DNA from: Synechococcus lacustris str. Tous
Lineage (GTDB): Bacteria > Cyanobacteriota > Cyanobacteriia > PCC-6307 > Cyanobiaceae
Direction of reading: 5' to 3'
Assembly (NCBI RefSeq): GCF_003011125.1
Contig: NZ_PXVC01000005.1
Coordinates: 1-64,000 of the forward strand
DNA length: 64,000 nt
This document shows positions 5,223 to 36,845 of this stretch, piece by piece (position 1 is the stretch's first letter; each line of letters opens with the position of its first letter). The position numbers and the translations under genes were made by a program. The notes below the pieces were generated by a model that saw only the letters and a program-made list of their open reading frames with translations, had not been told where the DNA came from and did no database searches.

Positions 5223-6320
5223 ATTAATAAACAAAAAAAGGTTGCTGTTATTGGCGCTGGCTTCGTTGGCTGTTGCACAGCCTGGCTGCTAACAAAACAG
5301 GGCCATAATGTAACTTTGATATCTACTAATTCAAGTGGCAGTTCTGCAGCCTTAGGGCTTTTGATGGCCGATGTATTTCAGCGCAGCAGCGGCCGCAGCT
5401 GGAGGCTTAGGCAACAATCAATGCAGCTATTTGGCGAGTGGCAACAACATTTGCAAGGCGCCGGCCATCAAGCAAAAATCAATCGCGGCCTATGGCTATT
5501 AACAAATAACAGCAATCAATGGCAGAAATATCAAATGCTGGCCGAAGAGCGCAGCAAGCAGGGCATTGGCATGGAGATATTCAATGCAGCTGCCCTCAAG
5601 GAGCAGGTGGAATTAGGTGTGCTGCCACCCCTATCAGAGGGGCTGATTGGAGGGATCTGGAGCAGTAGAGATGGCCAATTAGATCCAACTGAATGGATGA
5701 AAGAATTACTACTAGATGGCCAAAATAAAGGCTTGAAATATATTAATAGCAAAGTTAGCCAGTTAACTCAAATTGATGGGAGCTGGCAACTTAGCTTGGA
5801 GGCAAACAACAAAGATAATGAAATATATGATTGGCTAATGGTTTGCGCAGGGCTTGAAAGCATTGCGTTATTAGCGCCGCTGGGTTTAAGTAATACAAAT
5901 AATCTTGCGATGCAACCGGTGTTGGGCCAGGCGCTTGAATTAAAACTTCCGGCTGGAATAAATTTACAGCAAAGCATCAATTGGGATGGCATTAATTTGG
6001 TACCACGGCCGGATAATCATCTTTGGCTTGGTGCCACCCTAGAGCCGGGCTTAAATCAAAATCAAGCAGGATCTATCGATGCATTAAAAGATATGCAGCA
6101 GCTGAATGGGGCTGCTCCAGAATGGCTAAATCAAGCAAAAGTAATACGCCATTGGCAAGGGGTTAGGGCCCAACCTTTAGCGCAACCAGCGCCGGTGCTT
6201 GAACAATTACTGCCGGGTTTATGCCTAATGGCAGGCCACTACCGCAATGGAATTTTGCTTGGCCCCGCTAGTGCAATGTGGGCGGCCACAATCATTAATG
6301 AAGACAGCAAGGATAACTAA
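5223..6320 (+). CDS. thiO: ThiO-like glycine/D-amino acid oxidase (FAD), non-canonical start
   Basis: FAD-dependent amine oxidase of the DadA/ThiO family. ThiO oxidises glycine to the imine used for the thiazole ring of thiamine. The dinucleotide motif VAVIGAGFVG begins about 7 codons after the proposed start. The C-terminal GHYRNGILLGP is a ThiO hallmark. In this frame there is no ATG, GTG or TTG between the upstream in-frame stop (TAG at 5136) and TTG at 5316, and that TTG lies after the FAD motif, so it cannot be the real start. I place the start at ATT 5223, just after the psbQ stop; CTG at 5214 is an alternative. A damaged start codon is also possible. Oxidase family is secure, ThiO assignment likely; thiG and thiL occur elsewhere in the window. 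Confidence 0.75.
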   Translation: MNKQKKVAVIGAGFVGCCTAWLLTKQGHNVTLISTNSSGSSAALGLLMADVFQRSSGRSWRLRQQSMQLFGEWQQHLQGAGHQAKINRGLWLLTNNSNQWQKYQMLAEERSKQGIGMEIFNAAALKEQVELGVLPPLSEGLIGGIWSSRDGQLDPTEWMKELLLDGQNKGLKYINSKVSQLTQIDGSWQLSLEANNKDNEIYDWLMVCAGLESIALLAPLGLSNTNNLAMQPVLGQALELKLPAGINLQQSINWDGINLVPRPDNHLWLGATLEPGLNQNQAGSIDALKDMQQLNGAAPEWLNQAKVIRHWQGVRAQPLAQPAPVLEQLLPGLCLMAGHYRNGILLGPASAMWAATIINEDSKDN

Positions 6321-6351
6321 TTGCTTTCCTTGCAACTTCAGCCATTTAAAG

Positions 6352-8370
6352 TTAACTTCTCCCCACTAACTTTTGGCGCAGCTTTTTGATTTGATCACGC
6401 AAACTAGCTGCTGCTTCGAAATCAAGTTTTGCAGCTGCTGTTTTCATTTTTTCCTCTAATTGTGTAATCAACTCAGGTAATGCTTCCAAAGGCACTCCAT
6501 TGTGTTGGGCAACTTCAACCGCCTCTGTAAGTTGATCATCATTTAATTTGCGCGACATCTCAAGAAAAGCAAGGATTGGATTATTACCAATCGATCTTTT
6601 GCCCGCTGCCGTTGGCGTTATACCATGTTTAAGGTTGTATGCATGTTGAACAGCCCGCCGTTGTTCAGTAACAGTAATTGCCTTAGCCATCGAATCAGTG
6701 AGATTATCTGCATATAGCAGTGCCTTGCCATCCACATGGCGAGCTGCCCTACCAATGGTTTGAATTAATGAGCGCTCAGCCCGCAAAAAGCCTTCCTTAT
6801 CAGCATCTAATATGGCCACTAAAGAAACTTCAGGCAGGTCTAAACCCTCCCTCAATAAGTTCACACCCACCAACACATCATATTCACCATTACGCAAATC
6901 TTGAATGATTTCAATCCGTTCAATCGAATGGATTTCAGAATGCAAATAACGCACTTTTACCTGGTTTTCAGCTAAATAATCTGTTAAATCTTCTGCCATT
7001 CGTTTCGTTAGGGTTGTTATTAGTACCCTTTCCTTGCGATCAGCGCGCACACGTATTTCACCTAATAAATCATCCACCTGGCCGCCGGTTGGCCTCACTT
7101 CAACAATCGGATCAAGCACACCCGTGGGGCGGATTACCTGTTCTGCCACATTGCCGTTAGAAATCTCTAATTCCCAATTGCCTGGCGTTGCACTAACAAA
7201 TATTGTTTGCTGCGCTTTTTGCCAAAATTCCTCTGCTTTTAAGGGGCGATTATCAGCGGCACTAGGTAAACGAAAGCCATGGTCTATCAATACCTGTTTG
7301 CGGGCCCTATCACCGTTATACATGGCATGTAATTGCGAGCAGGTAACATGGCTTTCATCCACAACTAAAAGCCAATCCTTAGGGAAGTAATCAATCAAAC
7401 ATTCAGGTGGTGTACCGGCCTGCCTACCAGCTAGATGCCGAGCATAATTTTCCACACCATTGCAATAACCCACCTGTTGCAGCATTTCAAGGTCGTAGGT
7501 GGTGCGTTGTTCAAGCCGCTGCGCTTCTAGTAATTTGCCCTGGCCTTGCAATTCATCTAAACGCATGCGCAACTCAGCGCGAATTTCAGCAATCGCACCA
7601 TCTAAACGATCTTTTGGTGTTACAAAGTGTTTGGCTGGATAGATATTAATTGCTTCTAAACTTTGTAGAATCTCACCAGTTGTTGGATCCACATAACGGA
7701 TCGCTTCCACCTCATCGCCAAATAGTTCAATCCGCACCAAACGATCTTCATAGGCAGGGCCAATTTCCAACACATCACCCTTAACGCGAAAGCGACCGCG
7801 GGCAATTTCAGTGTCGTTACGGGTGTATTGATTATTAACCAATTCCCGCAATGAAGAACGTAGATTTAAATTATCTCCCACCTTAAATGGAACCGCAGCT
7901 TTTAAATATTCAGAGGGAATGCCCAAACCATATATACAACTAATTGATGCCACTACTATCACATCGCGCCGCTCAAATAACGAACGCGTTGCCGAGTGGC
8001 GCAACATATCAATCTCTTCATTTATTGATGCTGTTTTTGCAATATATGTATCAGAAACAGGCACATACGCCTCAGGCTGATAATAATCATAGTAAGAAAT
8101 AAAATATTCAACTGCATTTTGCGGGAAAAACTCCCGCAATTCATTACATAGCTGTGCCGCAAGGGTTTTGTTATGGGCTAACACCAAAGCCGGCCGGCCG
8201 GTGCGCTGGATCACATTGGCAATTGAAAAAGTTTTGCCGGTGCCAGTGGCACCAAGCAATGTTTGATATCGCTCGCCATCATCCATGCCCTTAACCAAGG
8301 TTTCAATGGCAGTGGGCTGATCGCCATTGGGGCTATAGGGAGCTTGTAGGCGGAAATCCACCGGGGCCAA
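6352..8370 (-). CDS. uvrB: Excinuclease ABC subunit B
   Basis: Damage-verifying helicase-like subunit of nucleotide excision repair, working with UvrA and UvrC. Walker A GATGTGKT is at residues 40-47. The beta-hairpin region with [12 protein letters not shown] follows, then helicase motif [13 protein letters not shown]-terminal UVR domain ([23 protein letters not shown]) binds UvrC. Length of 672 residues is normal. The start is TTG at 8370, directly abutting the stop of the upstream membrane gene; GTG at 8361 is an alternative. Zero spacing suggests co-transcription with the upstream gene. No clear LexA box was seen directly upstream. Confidence 0.97.
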
Positions 8371-8754
8371 TCAGATGGCACCAAATACTAAAGACAAAAC
8401 AACCATGCTGATGATGCTGTAAGCCAAAGAACCAAGAATTGCGCTAAATACACCATTTTTCAGGCGGAAACCATCCACAAAACCAGCTGCTAAACCAAAT
8501 AGAATTGCCGTAATAAGCCAATTAAACAACAAACTGATCGGTTGAATTAAACCACCTAAGCTTGTTACAGCCCATGGCAATAAAAATAATGCTTTTAATG
8601 GCAAAGTTAACAAACTACCCAATAAACCAATGGCGCCAGCTGATAGCAGCGCAGCGCCAAAGCCTTCGAATTCCACCCCAAGGGGCAAACTGGCAATTAA
8701 AAGCAGCACTAATGCGCGAATCGGCCACTGCAACAACCAGTCAAAGCCAGTCAC
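8371..8754 (-). CDS. Small membrane protein, phage holin family 4 type
   Basis: 127-residue hydrophobic protein with about four membrane segments, resembling the family named phage holin 4 superfamily (PF04020-like). It is found widely in bacterial chromosomes outside prophages. The function is not established, and no phage genes are nearby, so holin activity should not be assumed. Start GTG. It lies 8 bases after ycf23 and abuts uvrB, so ycf23, this gene and uvrB probably share a transcript. Confidence 0.7.
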   Translation of the reverse strand: MTGFDWLLQWPIRALVLLLIASLPLGVEFEGFGAALLSAGAIGLLGSLLTLPLKALFLLPWAVTSLGGLIQPISLLFNWLITAILFGLAAGFVDGFRLKNGVFSAILGSLAYSIISMVVLSLVFGAI

Positions 8755-8762
8755 CTGTTAGC

Positions 8763-9512
8763 TCAGCGTTGATGTGTAAGTGAAACCCTAGCCACGAGCG
8801 CCTCCCGTAAACCACGCACCACCGCCAGCATGGCAATTTCATCGCTCAGGCGATTAACTGCCGATCCCACACCAACGCCTGCGGCACCAGCGGCCTGGGC
8901 CATGGGCAAGGTTGTGGCTGATAAGCCAGATGCACAAAGCACTGGCACCTGCACCGCCCGGCTGATGCAATGGGCTGCAGCCAGGGTGGGTGCTGCTTTT
9001 TCAATTAAGCCTTGGATGCCAGCGCTATATGGCCGAGCACTGGTGCCACCTTCTGTTTGGATTAGGTCAGCTCCTGCCGCCACCAACTCAATGGCCAACT
9101 GCTCCTGTTGATCAAGGGCCATGGTGTGGGGCACCGTTACCGAAAGGCTGAGCTGGGGTAGCAAAGCCTTTGTGCGCCTGGTGAGTTCAAGCACTTCAGC
9201 GCCGCTGAATACACGGCCCTGGGCATAGAAGCTGTCGTAGTTGCCGATTTCCAGCAGCGTTGCCCCCGCTGCTACCGCCGCAGGGAATAGTTCAGGATCC
9301 ACCGCCGAAACACAGATTGGTAAGCCTGATTCGGCTGCAGCCAGCTGAACGATGGCTGGATCACAGGCCACATCAATTAAATCCGCCCCACCTGCAGCCG
9401 CCGCCCTAGCCACCATTGCCACAGAAGCTGGATCAAAATTGGCGAGGCCAGCTATCACTTTGAGCAGGCGTTGCTCGTTTAGGGCAGCTTTAAGCAAGTT
9501 AGGAAGCAACAT
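8763..9512 (-). CDS. ycf23: Ycf23-like protein (DUF561), TIM-barrel fold
   Basis: 249-residue protein of the Ycf23/DUF561 family, conserved in cyanobacteria and some algal plastids and of unknown biochemical role. The sequence looks like an alpha/beta barrel related to phosphate-binding TIM barrels: repeated strand-helix units with segments such as GGADLIDVACDP, ATLLEIGNYDSFYAQG, QTEGGTSARP and a C-terminal GAAGVGVGSAVN phosphate-loop-like stretch. Start ATG, divergent from tilS with only about 11 bases between start codons, so the two promoters must overlap or lie inside coding sequence. Confidence 0.82.
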   Translation of the reverse strand: MLLPNLLKAALNEQRLLKVIAGLANFDPASVAMVARAAAAGGADLIDVACDPAIVQLAAAESGLPICVSAVDPELFPAAVAAGATLLEIGNYDSFYAQGRVFSGAEVLELTRRTKALLPQLSLSVTVPHTMALDQQEQLAIELVAAGADLIQTEGGTSARPYSAGIQGLIEKAAPTLAAAHCISRAVQVPVLCASGLSATTLPMAQAAGAAGVGVGSAVNRLSDEIAMLAVVRGLREALVARVSLTHQR

Positions 9513-9523
9513 GCAGGTGTTAG

Positions 9524-10600
9524 ATGCAGATCATTAATTCTCCCACGCAAGCTATGGCACCCCGCTGGAGTGCCGATCATTTGCGGCTGCATCAACAGCT
9601 ATTACGGCAGCCGCTGCTGCTACCCCAAGGGGCGCGGCTGCTGCTGGCCGTGTCCGGCGGCCAGGATTCAATGGCACTAGCAGGCTTGCTGCTGGATCTA
9701 AAACGGCTGCACCACTGGTGTTTACATATTTGGCATGGCAACCACCGCTGGCGGCAGGAAGCAAATCAACAGGCAGAACAACTATTGCAATGGGCAGAAA
9801 GCCAAGAAATAGAAAGCCATTGCGATAGTTGGCAAACACCGATTCACACTGAAGCCGCCGCCCGTGAATGGCGCTACAGCTGCCTTGAAAAACAAGCCAA
9901 GGCATTGGCTTGCAGCCATGTGCTCACAGCCCACACCGCCACCGACCGCAGCGAAACCGTGCTGTTGCATCTGGCCCGGGGCAGCCACCGCAAAGGCTTA
10001 GCAAGCCTTAGTAGCGCAAGAACTCTGGTTGAAAATATAACTTTGGTAAGGCCCTTACTCTGCTTTTCTAGATCGGACACCAGCCGCATCTGCGCAGAAT
10101 TAGGGCTGCCAATCTGGCTAGATCCAAGCAACACAGATCCGCGCTTTAGCCGTAATCGCATCCGCACTGAAGTATTACCGGTGCTAGAGCAACTACATCC
10201 AGGTGCCAGCAGGCGGATCGCTGCAATGGCAGAACGATTTGAGGCAGAAGAAGAAAGCCAGCAGCAATTACTAGATCTTGCCCTACAAACTTTACTTGGG
10301 GCGGATCAAAAACTGAAGCGAAGAGAACTTATGGCCATCGGCCAGGTAAATCGCGAACTACTTTTGTTGAACTGGTTGCAACGCCAGGGGGTTGAACCCC
10401 TTGGCGTTGAGCAGTTAAATCAGCTTTGGCCGCAACTTGAAATCAGCCGTGGTGCCAATCAAATGGAATTGGCAAAACAGCAAATTCTGAGTTGGAACAA
10501 ACACTATCTATGGCTTATCAACCCACCGTTGCGCTGGGGCGACGGCGGCGCTGGCGATTATCTTCCTCAGTTTGAGCAACTACCTGAGCTTCAGGCTTAG
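9524..10600 (+). CDS. tilS: tRNA(Ile)-lysidine synthase
   Basis: Converts cytidine 34 of tRNA-Ile(CAU) to lysidine so the tRNA reads AUA and is charged with isoleucine. The N-type ATP pyrophosphatase loop SGGQDS is at residues 44-49, followed by HGNHRWR and a second conserved block HTATDRSETVLLHLARGS. The later stretch FSRNRIRTEVLPVL is also typical. 358 residues fits cyanobacterial TilS. ATG start. The last 83 bases are antisense to the 3' end of the RNase J gene. Confidence 0.95.
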   Translation: MQIINSPTQAMAPRWSADHLRLHQQLLRQPLLLPQGARLLLAVSGGQDSMALAGLLLDLKRLHHWCLHIWHGNHRWRQEANQQAEQLLQWAESQEIESHCDSWQTPIHTEAAAREWRYSCLEKQAKALACSHVLTAHTATDRSETVLLHLARGSHRKGLASLSSARTLVENITLVRPLLCFSRSDTSRICAELGLPIWLDPSNTDPRFSRNRIRTEVLPVLEQLHPGASRRIAAMAERFEAEEESQQQLLDLALQTLLGADQKLKRRELMAIGQVNRELLLLNWLQRQGVEPLGVEQLNQLWPQLEISRGANQMELAKQQILSWNKHYLWLINPPLRWGDGGAGDYLPQFEQLPELQA

Positions 10601-12410
10601 CTTGCTGGGGACGATCCCGTTCCTCCCTTGCCGCCCGAGTTACGGGGGTGCGATCTTCTACAGGATTTTTAGATTTATAAGCAGGGGTACCAGCTGGGGC
10701 TGGCTGCACCAAACAAATAATCATTGGCTCCACCTGCAATTCACGCCTCATGCGCCGCTGTAAACCAACCTCGATTTCCCGTTGCACACCCACCCAATCC
10801 ACATCGGGGGCATTACCACCGGTGTTGCGTGATAACTGATTCCAACGGTTTTCCAATACCCAGCCCACTTCCCGCTCAGCCCACATCGACATCTTGCGGG
10901 GATCAGCAGTGGTAACCACACCGCGAAGGTTCACCCGTGGTGGAGCCACCATCAAACCTTCAGTGCTGATGGCAACAAGAAGGGTGATCACACCATCACC
11001 TGCTAATTGCTGGCGTTCTTTTAAAACGCGCGCATCAACAATACCGTTGCGGGAATTATCAAGCAATTCGATACCAGCCTTCACTGGATCACCCTTACGA
11101 ATTGAATCTGGGGTGAGCTCAACCACATCACCGTTATCGATGATTAATATATTTTCCTCTGGCACACCCATAGATTGAGCGGTGCGGGAATGGCACATCA
11201 ACATGCGATGTTCACCATGCACAGGCACAAAGAAGCGGGGCCTTGTTAGGGCAAGCATCAACTTTTGATCCTCTTGGCTGCCGTGACCTGAAACGTGAAT
11301 ACCTTCGCCTTTGCCATAAACCACCTTGGCACCGAGCATCATCAAGCGATCGATCGTGTTAACAACAGAGATCGTGTTACCTGGAATTGGGCTGGCTGAA
11401 AAGATGATTTTATCGGTGGATTTAACCTGCACCTGGGGGTGCTCACAACGGGAGATGCGGCTGAGGGCAGCGAGGGTTTCACCTTGGCTACCTGTCATCA
11501 ATAAAAGGGTTTCACGATCGGGCAGATCGCGTATTTGCTTAATTGGCACAAATAGATCATCTGGGCAGCGGATATAACCCAATTCCCGGGCCTTAGCAAT
11601 CACGTTGAGCATCGAACGGCCAAGCAAACTAACCTTGCGGCCATGCTTAAGCGCCAGCTCAAGAATCATCGATACCCGATGCACTGAACTAGCAAATGTT
11701 GTGATCAACACGCGGCCTTCTGCACTGCCCACATGGCGATCGAGATTGGGGAATACGGCCCGCTCAGAAGGGGTAAAACCAGGCAGTTCAGCATTGGTGG
11801 AATCACTAAACATGCAGAGCACACCCTGCTCGCCGTATTGGGCCATGCGCTGAATATCGAAATACTCACCATCCACAGGGGTGTGATCAAATTTGAAATC
11901 GCCCGTGAATACAACAACACCCACTGGGGTTGTGATCGCCAATGAAAAACTATCGGCAATTGAGTGGGTGTTGCGGATGAATTCAACCTTAAAATGTTGA
12001 CCAACTTTCACCACATCCCGTGGTGCAACTGTTTGCAGTGTGGTGCGATCTGCCACACCGGCTTCTGCCATCTTGCCCTCGAGCAGCGAAAGGGCTAAGC
12101 GGGGCCCATAAATAATAGGAATATTAAAATGCTTGAGGTGATGGGATATGCCGCCGATGTGATCTTCGTGGCCGTGGGTAACAATCATGCCACGGATACG
12201 TTTTTGATTTTCTCTTAAATAACTTGTATCTGGCATCACCACATTAACGCCATGCATGCCATCGCTTGGAAAGGCGAGGCCCGCATCCACCATCATCAAA
12301 TCATCGCCGTATTCAAATACGCAGGTGTTTTTACCAATCTCATGCAATCCACCTAAGGGAATCACCCGTAGGGCGGGGGTTTTGGTTGCAGATGTTGCGG
12401 AAGTAGCCAT
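10518..12410 (-). CDS. rnj: Ribonuclease J
   Basis: Metallo-beta-lactamase/beta-CASP ribonuclease for RNA maturation and turnover, with endo- and 5' exonuclease activity in the family. The metal-binding motif HGHEDH is at residues 79-84. Further metal ligands sit in FTGDFKFDHTP and in HVSGHGSQED; the C-terminal RNase J region follows. The final ~60 residues are rich in basic residues and glutamine, probably disordered, and most of the tail overlapping tilS is in this low-complexity part. 630 residues, ATG start. The gene follows dapA and asd on the same strand, though about 60 bases separate it from dapA. Confidence 0.95.
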   Translation of the reverse strand: MATSATSATKTPALRVIPLGGLHEIGKNTCVFEYGDDLMMVDAGLAFPSDGMHGVNVVMPDTSYLRENQKRIRGMIVTHGHEDHIGGISHHLKHFNIPIIYGPRLALSLLEGKMAEAGVADRTTLQTVAPRDVVKVGQHFKVEFIRNTHSIADSFSLAITTPVGVVVFTGDFKFDHTPVDGEYFDIQRMAQYGEQGVLCMFSDSTNAELPGFTPSERAVFPNLDRHVGSAEGRVLITTFASSVHRVSMILELALKHGRKVSLLGRSMLNVIAKARELGYIRCPDDLFVPIKQIRDLPDRETLLLMTGSQGETLAALSRISRCEHPQVQVKSTDKIIFSASPIPGNTISVVNTIDRLMMLGAKVVYGKGEGIHVSGHGSQEDQKLMLALTRPRFFVPVHGEHRMLMCHSRTAQSMGVPEENILIIDNGDVVELTPDSIRKGDPVKAGIELLDNSRNGIVDARVLKERQQLAGDGVITLLVAISTEGLMVAPPRVNLRGVVTTADPRKMSMWAEREVGWVLENRWNQLSRNTGGNAPDVDWVGVQREIEVGLQRRMRRELQVEPMIICLVQPAPAGTPAYKSKNPVEDRTPVTRAAREERDRPQQAKPEAQVVAQTEEDNRQRRRRPSATVG

Positions 12411-33144: not shown

Positions 33145-34470
33145 CTATTCCCATTCAATGGTGCCTGGGGGTTTACTGGTGATGTCGTATACAACTCGGT
33201 TAACACCCTCCACCTCATTAACAATGCGGTTTGAGATGCGTTCCATCACCTCGTAGGGCAAGCGCGACCAATCGGCGGTCATGCCATCTTCACTGCCAAC
33301 ACAACGCAACACGATTGGGTAGGCATAGGTGCGTTTATCACCCATTACCCCCACACTGCGCACGGGCAAAAGCACGGCAAAGGCCTGCCAAATTTCGTGA
33401 TAGAGCCCCGCATCACGCACCTCCTCCCGCACGATTAGATCTGCATCCCTAAGGATTTGTAATTTCTCCTCATTCACCTCACCCAAAATACGAATAGCAA
33501 GGCCGGGTCCGGGGAAAGGATGGCGCCTAACTATCTCCTCTGGTAAACCTAAACTACGGCCAACTTTACGCACTTCATCTTTAAATAAACGCCGCAAAGG
33601 CTCAACAAGTTTAAACTGCAAATCCTTTGGCAAGCCTCCAACATTATGGTGACTTTTTATTTTTACTGCCACCCTTTCGCCGGTTTTTGGATCAACATTA
33701 GTGCCAGCACTTTCGATCACATCAGGGTAGAGAGTGCCCTGGGCTAAGTAATCAAAAGGCCCTAATTTTTTACCTAGTAGCACTCGCTTATCTCCCACCT
33801 GAGCTCGCACTGAGGCGATTGCCTCATCAATAAATACATCGGTGGTCCAATCGGGGGCACAGCCACAAATGTGATAAACAAAATTGCGCAATAGCGCCAT
33901 GCCACAACTTGAATGCACCACCTCTGGGTGAAATTGCACGCCGTAAAGCCTGCGCTGGTGGTTGGCAACAACTGCCTCTGGAGTGTTATCGGTGTGGGCT
34001 AATCGACTAAAACCCTCTGGCAGGGCCACCACCGAATCCCCATGGCTCATCCACATGGTGGAACCATCGTCCACATTGGTTAGTAGATCGGTGGGATCAT
34101 CAACCCAAAGCGGTGCTTTGCCGTATTCACCCCGCTCCGAGGCCTCCACCCGGCCCCCCAATTGCTGCACCATCAACTGCATGCCGTAGCACACACCAAG
34201 CACTGGTATTCCCAATTCCCAGAGGCCCGGATCGCTTACTGGTGCGCCATCTGCATAAACGGAATTCGGGCCACCGCTGAGGATGATCCCCTTTGGCGCC
34301 AACTCCCGCAGCTGCTCCAATGTGGTGGTGTGGCTTAACACCAGGGAATACACCTCGGTTTCCCTCACCCTGCGGGCGATCAACTCCGAATACTGGGAGC
34401 CGAAATCGAGGATCACGATGGCTGGGCGACGCCCCTCCGCCCCCTCTAGGCCGGCCAGAGCAGCGGACAT
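33145..34470 (-). CDS. guaA: GMP synthase with an internal in-frame deletion of the ATP-binding loop
   Basis: GMP synthase aminates XMP to GMP using glutamine and ATP. The N-terminal class I glutamine amidotransferase domain is complete: Cys94 in GVCYGMQ, and His181 and Glu183 in FHPEV. The C-terminal dimerisation/XMP-binding part is also well conserved ([23 protein letters not shown], ending TIEWE). Between them the sequence jumps from DKRVLLG straight to [17 protein letters not shown] at residue 233 (bases 33772-33774). Normal GuaA has about 90 more residues here, including the pyrophosphatase loop SGGVDSS. The protein is 441 residues against a usual 525-530. As read, it should not adenylylate XMP, so it is either inactive, a sequence error, or altered. 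Start ATG 34470; TTG 34476 is an alternative. Confidence 0.9.
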
Positions 34471-34494
34471 CAGCAAAAAGGCATTCGCTCTAGC

Positions 34495-35607
34495 CTAGGG
34501 GCAAGGGGGTGGAAACCAAAATTCAGCCTGGGAACCAACGGCCCATAGCCGTCTGGAGCGATCAAATAGGGCCGCCCCCGGCTTGAGGCTAGAACCCACC
34601 GTTTCCCGCAGATAGGTGCTGCAGCGCTGTTCAATGCTGGTGGCAATGCGCCGCCGCAGGCGCTGAGCAAGCAATGGTTGCTGCAGTTCCAACTGCACCA
34701 TGGCCTGCTCCACCGTGGCGGCCTCCCATAATTTGTGCAGCGCTTCCCCCTGCAAACCCTCAAGGGCGGCAAGGGCTGTAAGCACCTCCGCACGACCATC
34801 GGCCAGATGGTGATGGGTGTGAAAAATACCCCCCGCTAATTTCAATAATTTGCCGTGGTAGCCAAACAACAACAGCCGCTCCACCCCAGCCGCCGCTGCC
34901 GCCGCCAAAAGGGGCCCAAGCCAATTGCCAACCTTGAGTAATTTCGCTTCTGAGATACCCAGCTGGGGCGCCAGGTTTAAGCCGTTTTCACCCACCACCA
35001 ACACCAATTCTTTGCAACCCTCAGGGGTTTCCAGCCGGCGTTGCAATTCAGCTAATGCCTGTTGCAAAGCATCTGGGCCAGCACTTTGCTGCACCTTGGC
35101 CTGGTTACCAATCAAAGCCAAACCTTCCACCACACCGAAAGCGGCATTGCTGGTGCGTTCCGCCAGAACCCTGCCCCTGGGAATAATCAATTGCAAAACC
35201 AACTTGGCTTGCGCTGGCAGCAGCGGCAGCAAGTTGATTTCCAACAACTCACGGGCATAGCTGGATAAACAGAGCTCACCAGAATCAGCAAATACGCCAA
35301 GGCCTTCTCCGGCCATCAGCTGCAGCCTCTGCTCGCCAGCACCCCAATGGGCCTCAACCCAAATCATTAGGCCCCTGGTGAGATCCAGGGCCGCACCCCC
35401 TTCACACACAGCCATCGCCAAACAGCGACCCTCCCCCAGGGGTGCCACCGCCTGCACTGGCAACAATTCAGGCTGCTGCGCACCTCGCTCAAGCAGCAAT
35501 GGCTGTTCATCGCAGAAGGGTTCACCTAGCAATTGCTGCAGGGCTGCCCTAGCCGCGGCCGCCACCCACACCGGCAGGGTGTAACCAGAGGCACCGAGCT
35601 CAGCCAT
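34495..35607 (-). CDS. cbiD: Cobalt-precorrin-5B C1-methyltransferase
   Basis: CbiD acts in the anaerobic (early cobalt) route to the cobalamin corrin ring. The N-terminus SGYTLPVWVAAAARAAL is the CbiD opening, followed by the LPVQAVAPLGEG region, RTSNAAFGVVEGLALIG and LLLFGYHGKLLKLAGG. The 370-residue length is typical. Start ATG. It sits 24 bases before guaA with no functional link. The divergent aminotransferase begins about 80 bases away. Confidence 0.88.
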   Translation of the reverse strand: MAELGASGYTLPVWVAAAARAALQQLLGEPFCDEQPLLLERGAQQPELLPVQAVAPLGEGRCLAMAVCEGGAALDLTRGLMIWVEAHWGAGEQRLQLMAGEGLGVFADSGELCLSSYARELLEINLLPLLPAQAKLVLQLIIPRGRVLAERTSNAAFGVVEGLALIGNQAKVQQSAGPDALQQALAELQRRLETPEGCKELVLVVGENGLNLAPQLGISEAKLLKVGNWLGPLLAAAAAAGVERLLLFGYHGKLLKLAGGIFHTHHHLADGRAEVLTALAALEGLQGEALHKLWEAATVEQAMVQLELQQPLLAQRLRRRIATSIEQRCSTYLRETVGSSLKPGAALFDRSRRLWAVGSQAEFWFPPPCP

Positions 35608-35690
35608 ACAGAAACGAAAGCTTCAGGGGGGAAATCGACTTATGGAGGATCATTTTTTATCCTGATCTATTGCCTCCGCCCCCCGCAGCC

Positions 35691-36845
35691 ATGCAGGACA
35701 AGCTCAGCCTGATGATCCCCGGCCCAACGCCTGTGCCTGAGCGGGTATTGCTAGCGATGGCACGCCACCCAATCGGCCACCGCAGCGCTGAATTTCAAAC
35801 GATTGTGGCCCGCACCACCGAACAATTGCAGTGGTTGCACCAAACCAAAAACAACGTTTTGGTGCTGGCTGGCAGCGGCACCGCAGCCATGGAAGCCGGA
35901 ATCATCAATGTGCTCAGCAAGGGTGATCGGGTGCTTTGCGGTGATAACGGCAAATTTGGCGAACGCTGGGTAAAGGTGGCCCAGGCCTACGGCCTTGATG
36001 TGCAAGTGATCAAAGCCGAATGGGGACAACCCCTAAATCCTGAGGATTTCCGCGAAGCTTTAGAAGCCGATGGCGCTAAACAAATCAAGGCGGTAATTAT
36101 CACCCATTCAGAAACATCCACAGGGGTGATTAATGACCTTGAAAGCATCAATAAGCATGTGAAAGCCCACGCTGAAGCACTGATCATTGTTGATGCTGTT
36201 ACCAGCCTTGGTGCCACCGATGTGCCCATTGATCAATGGGGTTTAGATGTGGTTTGTTCCGGCTCCCAAAAGGGTTACATGATTCCCCCTGGCCTTGGTT
36301 TTGTGGCCATGGGCGATAGGGCCTGGGCTGCCCATAAAACTTCTAACCTTCCCAAGTTCTATTTAGATCTTGGTAAATATCGCAAATCAGCGGCTGATAA
36401 CAGCAATCCCTTCACCCCAGCGATAAATCTCTATTTCGCCCTTGAAGCTGCTTTGGAAATGATGCAAACCGAAGGGCTAGAAGCGATCTTTAAGCGCCAC
36501 CATCGCCATCGCCATGCCACCACCGCTGCCATGCAGGCGATCGGCTTGCCCCTATATGCAGCTGCAGGCTGTGGCAGCCCTGCGATCACAGCGGTTGCCC
36601 CCCAGGGCATCGATGCTGAGCTGATCCGCAAGGTGGTGAAAAAGCGTTTCAACATTCTTTTGGCTGGCGGCCAAGACCACCTCAAGGGCCATGTATTTCG
36701 AATTGGCCACCTCGGTTTTGTTTGCGATCGCGACATTCTTTGCGCCGTTGCTGCGATCGAAGCAGCCCTACAGGAGCTAGATGCTGCCCCCAATCCAATG
36801 GGAGCTGGTGTAGCAGCTGCTGCCGCTGCACTCCAATCTGTTTAA
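35691..36845 (+). CDS. Serine/alanine-glyoxylate aminotransferase (class V)
   Basis: Pyridoxal-phosphate aminotransferase of fold type I, probably in photorespiration, converting glyoxylate to glycine with serine or alanine as donor. MIPGPTPVPERVL is a typical opening; the PLP lysine is K194 in SGSQKGYM; VDAVTSLGA holds the pyridine-binding aspartate. 384 residues from ATG 35691, preferred over a TTG seven codons upstream. Related cyanobacterial proteins were once labelled soluble hydrogenase small subunit, which this sequence does not support. Donor preference is unresolved. Confidence 0.9.
   Translation: MQDKLSLMIPGPTPVPERVLLAMARHPIGHRSAEFQTIVARTTEQLQWLHQTKNNVLVLAGSGTAAMEAGIINVLSKGDRVLCGDNGKFGERWVKVAQAYGLDVQVIKAEWGQPLNPEDFREALEADGAKQIKAVIITHSETSTGVINDLESINKHVKAHAEALIIVDAVTSLGATDVPIDQWGLDVVCSGSQKGYMIPPGLGFVAMGDRAWAAHKTSNLPKFYLDLGKYRKSAADNSNPFTPAINLYFALEAALEMMQTEGLEAIFKRHHRHRHATTAAMQAIGLPLYAAAGCGSPAITAVAPQGIDAELIRKVVKKRFNILLAGGQDHLKGHVFRIGHLGFVCDRDILCAVAAIEAALQELDAAPNPMGAGVAAAAAALQSV

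Follow-up and report, generated by a model that had tools for sequence, protein, structure and literature searches.

The guaA locus of Synechococcus lacustris str. Tous

The window analysed here is a stretch of 64,000 nucleotides from Synechococcus lacustris str. Tous (contig NZ_PXVC01000005.1, positions 1 to 64,000 of the forward strand), taken from a draft picocyanobacterial assembly of 2.67 Mb in 305 contigs that we refer to as G000. It carries on its minus strand a guaA gene for the glutamine-hydrolysing guanosine monophosphate (GMP) synthase, in which 90 codons within the ATP pyrophosphatase (ATPPase) domain are absent. The Cys-His-Glu class-I glutamine amidotransferase (GATase) and the C-terminal GMP_synt_C domain expected of a GuaA protein are present, while the SGGxDSS P-loop and ATP-binding subdomain are absent. 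The short form nevertheless passes the curated whole-protein cut-offs for GuaA, scoring 638 bits against NF000848 (cut-off 400) and 257.7 bits against TIGR00888 (cut-off 172.15); its score of 342.2 bits against TIGR00884 is barely above the cut-off of 338.75, by 3.5 bits.

Extent of the gap and its junction

We aligned the window protein with homologues from the same-genus genomes G001, G002 and G003 and from related genera (G027, G035 and others). Between VLL and [KR][KR]LGPFDY, the window GuaA has exactly 90 residues (270 nt) fewer than each homologue that allowed this region to be delimited. In pairwise alignments with G002 and G003 the flanking matches abut in the window protein (0 residues between them) and lie 90 residues apart in the relative. 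The absent codons hold, in the relatives, SGGVDSS and the front half of the ATPPase domain, and the window frame runs across the junction uninterrupted, without a stop or foreign bases. The initial annotation, made from the letters of the window, had described a clean in-frame deletion with near-perfect flanks, had put the loss at about 90 residues (~270 bases) including SGGVDSS, and had placed the junction at the GGT codon 33772-33774; all of this was borne out, as was the retention of Cys, His and Glu in the glutaminase half, which we confirmed by reading the codons in the ORF (open reading frame). It had also suggested that the junction glycine could be built from the first base of an alanine codon and the last two of a serine codon. 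The relatives fit this proposal: they have Ala (GCN) before the gap, and G002 has Ser (AGT) followed by AAAAAATTAGGGCCTTTTGATTA, bases that are identical in the window. At the junction G002 reads GAAGAAAGT and then AAAAAATTAGGGCCTTTTGATTA, as against CTAGGT and then AAAAAATTAGGGCCTTTTGATTA in the window.

No repeat of at least 3 nt, spaced by 270 nt and spanning the join, occurs in the four relatives tested; the single 3-nt match listed, that in L006, does not fall at the join. On the evidence of these four relatives, a repeat- or microhomology-mediated deletion was rejected.

Table 1. Features of the guaA region, in window coordinates
Feature	Position	Strand	Remarks
guaA, glutamine-hydrolysing GMP synthase, deletion form	33145..34470	minus	441 aa from ATG at 34470
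guaA, alternative start	ORF 33145-34476, upstream TTG at 34476	minus	443 aa
Class-I GATase domain, complete	33871..34416	minus	PF00117, profile 1-189 of 190, 147 bits
GATase catalytic codons, all present	Cys 34189-34191, His 33928-33930, Glu 33922-33924	minus	read from ORF sequence
Junction Gly codon GGT, site of the absent 90 codons (270 nt) including the SGGVDSS P-loop	33772..33774	minus	homologue alignments
GMP_synt_C, C-terminal XMP-binding/dimerisation domain, complete	33151..33426	minus	PF00958, profile 1-92 of 92
cbiD	34495-35607	minus	upstream of guaA
Aminotransferase	35670-36845	plus	beyond cbiD; below all curated cut-offs for the BhcA and PhnW families

Predicted consequences for the enzyme

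The gap maps to approximately residues 234-324 of the E. coli GMP synthase (1GPM). According to a review (PMC10526850), pyrophosphate is bound in the P-loop, and the enzyme owes its adenine specificity to strands 229-233 and 255-261 with Val260. Of these elements the gap removes the P-loop and strand 255-261, amounting to some half of the ATP-binding subdomain. With the P-loop and the adenine-selecting strand lost, the protein as written is predicted to carry out glutamine hydrolysis at best, and adenylylation of xanthosine monophosphate (XMP) and GMP synthesis are predicted to be impossible. Since the domain rotation that builds the glutamine site is triggered by the binding of ATP and XMP (PMC10526850), the remaining glutaminase half is probably poorly active as well.

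Distribution of the short form and search for a second copy

A search for the joined form at the DNA level (pattern R[VI]LLx[KR][KR]LGPFDY) returned one match in this genome and none in the 389 other genomes of the class, so the short form is not a matter of chance similarity. The exact join had no match in IMG/VR. Among 80 annotated-genome loci fetched with this protein, 74 have SGGxDS in frame with the C-terminal half. Six gave no match to the motif pattern and comprise four frames of at least 507 aa, one frame of 239 aa and one locus with no C-terminal match. The initial annotation had raised the prospect that close relatives carry the same short form. We rejected this, since the aligned same-genus relatives are all full length and the join is absent from the other genomes of the class.

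All four sampled contigs of G000 shorter than 2.5 kb read entirely as N, so that a loop-bearing allele could sit unseen there, and our searches for a loop or second copy cover the visible bases of the genome. Within these, the profile search gave a single GMP_synt_C match and hence no second guaA C-terminal domain, and a 92-residue loop query gave no match, although it found its target in four of four relatives used as positive controls. The second intact guaA or separate loop fragment that had been proposed was therefore rejected for the visible sequence. In the same-genus relatives guaA is single copy.

Constraint on the retained halves

We compared the retained codons with those of the two nearest relatives, G002 and G003, by the ratio of nonsynonymous to synonymous substitution rates (dN/dS). 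Against G002 the ratio was 0.046 in the N-terminal half and 0.021 in the C-terminal half; the corresponding values against G003 were 0.046 and 0.025. The junction Gly is the only residue at which the window protein departs from the positions invariant across 12 other homologues; other members of the family depart from them at 0 to 4. Drift would be expected in a gene that had been inactive for any length of time, and with none apparent here the gap is either very recent or absent from the organism. The low dN/dS and the lack of substitutions rule out an old pseudogene.

Requirement for GMP and possible salvage

Both guaA and guaB3 are given as essential in Synechococcus elongatus in a passage of PMC13273366 that cites Rubin et al. 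2015, and the same paper describes suppressor guaA alleles in heterozygosity in S. elongatus clones. In the visible genome of G000 the model for hypoxanthine-guanine phosphoribosyltransferase (HGPRT; TIGR01203) gave only two sub-threshold matches, which are PyrR and phosphoribosyl pyrophosphate (PRPP) synthetase. A general phosphoribosyltransferase model gave six matches there, none recognised as a purine-salvage enzyme, those on C13, C224, C251 and C280 not being classified to family. A PfkB-family protein, a candidate member of the guanosine-kinase subfamily, is present as in the relatives, and the inosine monophosphate (IMP) dehydrogenase homologue is uninterrupted and of the short, 397-aa kind found in the relatives. 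As no other guaA or loop is visible and no HGPRT passes its cut-off, fixation of a null allele would deprive the cell of every known route to GMP visible in this genome.

Quality of the assembly and probable mixing of strains

We sampled parts of 36 contigs of G000 (639 kb), including the contig that holds the window. Most sampled contigs contain single-base Ns at ~6 to 20 per kb, and in stretches aligned to a relative's genes, 992 of 1274 Ns (78%) fall at third codon positions, a pattern that appears to be the signature of a consensus drawn over polymorphic strains. The window contig has no N in 90,785 bases and, set against the density in most others, probably has a different assembly history and was built differently from them. 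The N-rich pattern was seen in sampled contigs other than C251 and C265, and C254 and C259 switch abruptly between N-free and N-rich stretches; such switches within contigs suggest merged strain assemblies. An origin of the window contig in another organism is ruled out by its synteny with G001 over ~84 kb and by its guaA, which is closest to those of same-genus genomes.

We matched ORFs of G001 (1.7 Mb) to the 639 kb of G000, and 299 of them reached at least 65% identity. Among these, guaA was the only one with a clear loss within a conserved globular domain of a native gene, and the reverse comparison flagged no comparable loss in G001. The remaining flagged gaps were low-complexity linkers (including that of dnaX), an intein-like insert in the relative's thyX, antisense frames, a gene end of low identity and a broken extra secA. 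On this basis, a general degradation of the assembly was rejected.

Two of these loci have features of their own. In G001, thyX (C13, 230258-232246, plus strand) carries an intein-like in-frame insert of ~1.28 kb that is absent from its homologue in G000 (C263, 10476-11204). On C259 of G000 the broken second secA (6057-7102, minus strand) sits in inverted orientation immediately upstream of the intact native copy (8183-11002, plus strand). Its C-terminal part has 98% protein identity to a genome of another genus (G231), and it shows clean in-frame gaps of ~243 nt and ~60 nt (the latter with a short repeat) and a large one that follows residue ~85. It also has a 1-nt frameshift.

Interpretation of the gap

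We lean towards reading the 270-nt gap as an artefact of assembly or consensus building, a term that here includes the choice of a rare deletion-bearing molecule for the consensus. A false join could have been made while a consensus was built from several co-occurring strains, or alternatively a rare molecule bearing the deletion may have been the one selected. This reading is supported by the strong constraint on both retained halves, the strain polymorphism marked by single-base Ns, the probably different assembly history of the window contig and the position of guaA as the sole clear conserved-domain loss among the matched ORFs. The lack of any other visible guaA or loop and of an HGPRT above its cut-off points the same way, as does the essentiality of guaA stated for S. 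elongatus (PMC13273366). A fixed mutation is on this evidence inferred to be less likely than an artefact or a minority allele, and a full-length, working GuaA is very probably present in the living organism or was until very recently. Several points weigh against an artefact. With its length, its synteny with G001 over ~84 kb and the absence of other blemishes, the window contig is not badly assembled overall. No microhomology is needed at the join when it is rebuilt from relatives as proxies, a result that could change to 2 nt of homology if this species had Gly in place of Ala at that residue; with join homology missing, there is no obvious case for a simple collapse of a repeat by the assembler. 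The gap also keeps the frame exactly, which has a chance of one in three and to which we give little weight. The join itself would be explained as well by a chimeric molecule as by a faulty gap closure or an end-joined deletion. A literature search on mixed-strain misassembly found no paper.

A rival reading is a real, very recent 270-nt null deletion, present in the sampled population or in some chromosome copies and tolerated through intact alleles in sister cells or sister chromosomes or through scavenged guanine nucleotides. A clean, blunt join whose flanks are perfect and where no foreign bases intrude, the undecayed remainder of guaA, the clean and syntenic contig and the heterozygous guaA alleles of S. 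elongatus suppressor clones (PMC13273366) would all suit it; we nonetheless consider it unlikely, as a lethal allele should not rise to consensus frequency, guaA is listed as essential in S. elongatus (in the passage of PMC13273366 cited above), and no purine-salvage phosphoribosyltransferase, of HGPRT type or other, was recognised among the visible matches to that family. More improbable still is an intact guaA, or a second strain's loop allele, within the short all-N contigs of the same bin, which would make the organism prototrophic and the short gene a duplicate or allele. The restriction of the loop search to visible bases, the four short contigs read as N and the apparent mixing of strains leave room for such a copy, and the single GMP_synt_C match and the single-copy state of guaA in same-genus relatives speak against it; it overlaps with the artefact reading, of which it is a compatible variant. 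We regard it as very improbable that the short GuaA is real and has been retained for another role, for instance as a glutaminase-only protein or an XMP-binding scaffold, with GMP made otherwise. In its favour are the preserved frame, the undamaged glutaminase triad and XMP-binding domain and the strong constraint on the flanks, but this constraint equals that of the full-length relatives, as a brand-new lesion or an artefact would also give; moreover, there is no other visible copy or alternative route to GMP, and the form is absent from same-genus relatives and unique among 390 genomes. A functional loop-less GMP synthase found no support. It is likewise very improbable that a free-living picocyanobacterium with no visible purine-salvage enzyme carries at high frequency a guaA whose product is unable to activate XMP, and relies on the uptake of guanine nucleotides from its neighbours or on an unrecognised route to GMP.

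An artefact or minority allele, as we favour, agrees in part with the initial annotation: its observation is confirmed, and among the causes that it offered a population variant and an assembly error both stand, each fitting a mixed-strain assembly and an undecayed gene; a second guaA or a loop fragment was not found in the visible genome. If the deletion were real and common, this would be a photosynthetic bacterium lacking the last step to GMP with no visible salvage gene, a striking metabolic dependency. In practical terms, the locus illustrates how an essential gene in a draft genome of high completeness can carry a clean, in-frame gap free of stops. An automated pipeline would annotate the short guaA as normal, as the GuaA equivalog cut-off is passed, and such gaps can mislead metabolic reconstructions and protein databases.

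Comparison with known GMP synthases

In archaea GMP synthase consists of two subunits, with separate GATase and ATPPase genes, and the window GATase could in principle pair likewise with an ATPPase made elsewhere. It differs from the archaeal arrangement in that what remains of the ATPPase half and the GATase form one fused chain; the visible genome, with its single GMP_synt_C match, yielded no separate ATPPase gene or loop. In contrast to the two-domain bacterial GuaA (E. coli 1GPM; NF000848), the window protein is without the counterparts of E. coli residues ~234-324, which include the P-loop and the 255-261 strand with Val260, the elements that bind pyrophosphate and adenine in 1GPM (PMC10526850). 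It resembles the bacterial form in its setting, the gene order around guaA being the same as in the same-genus G001.
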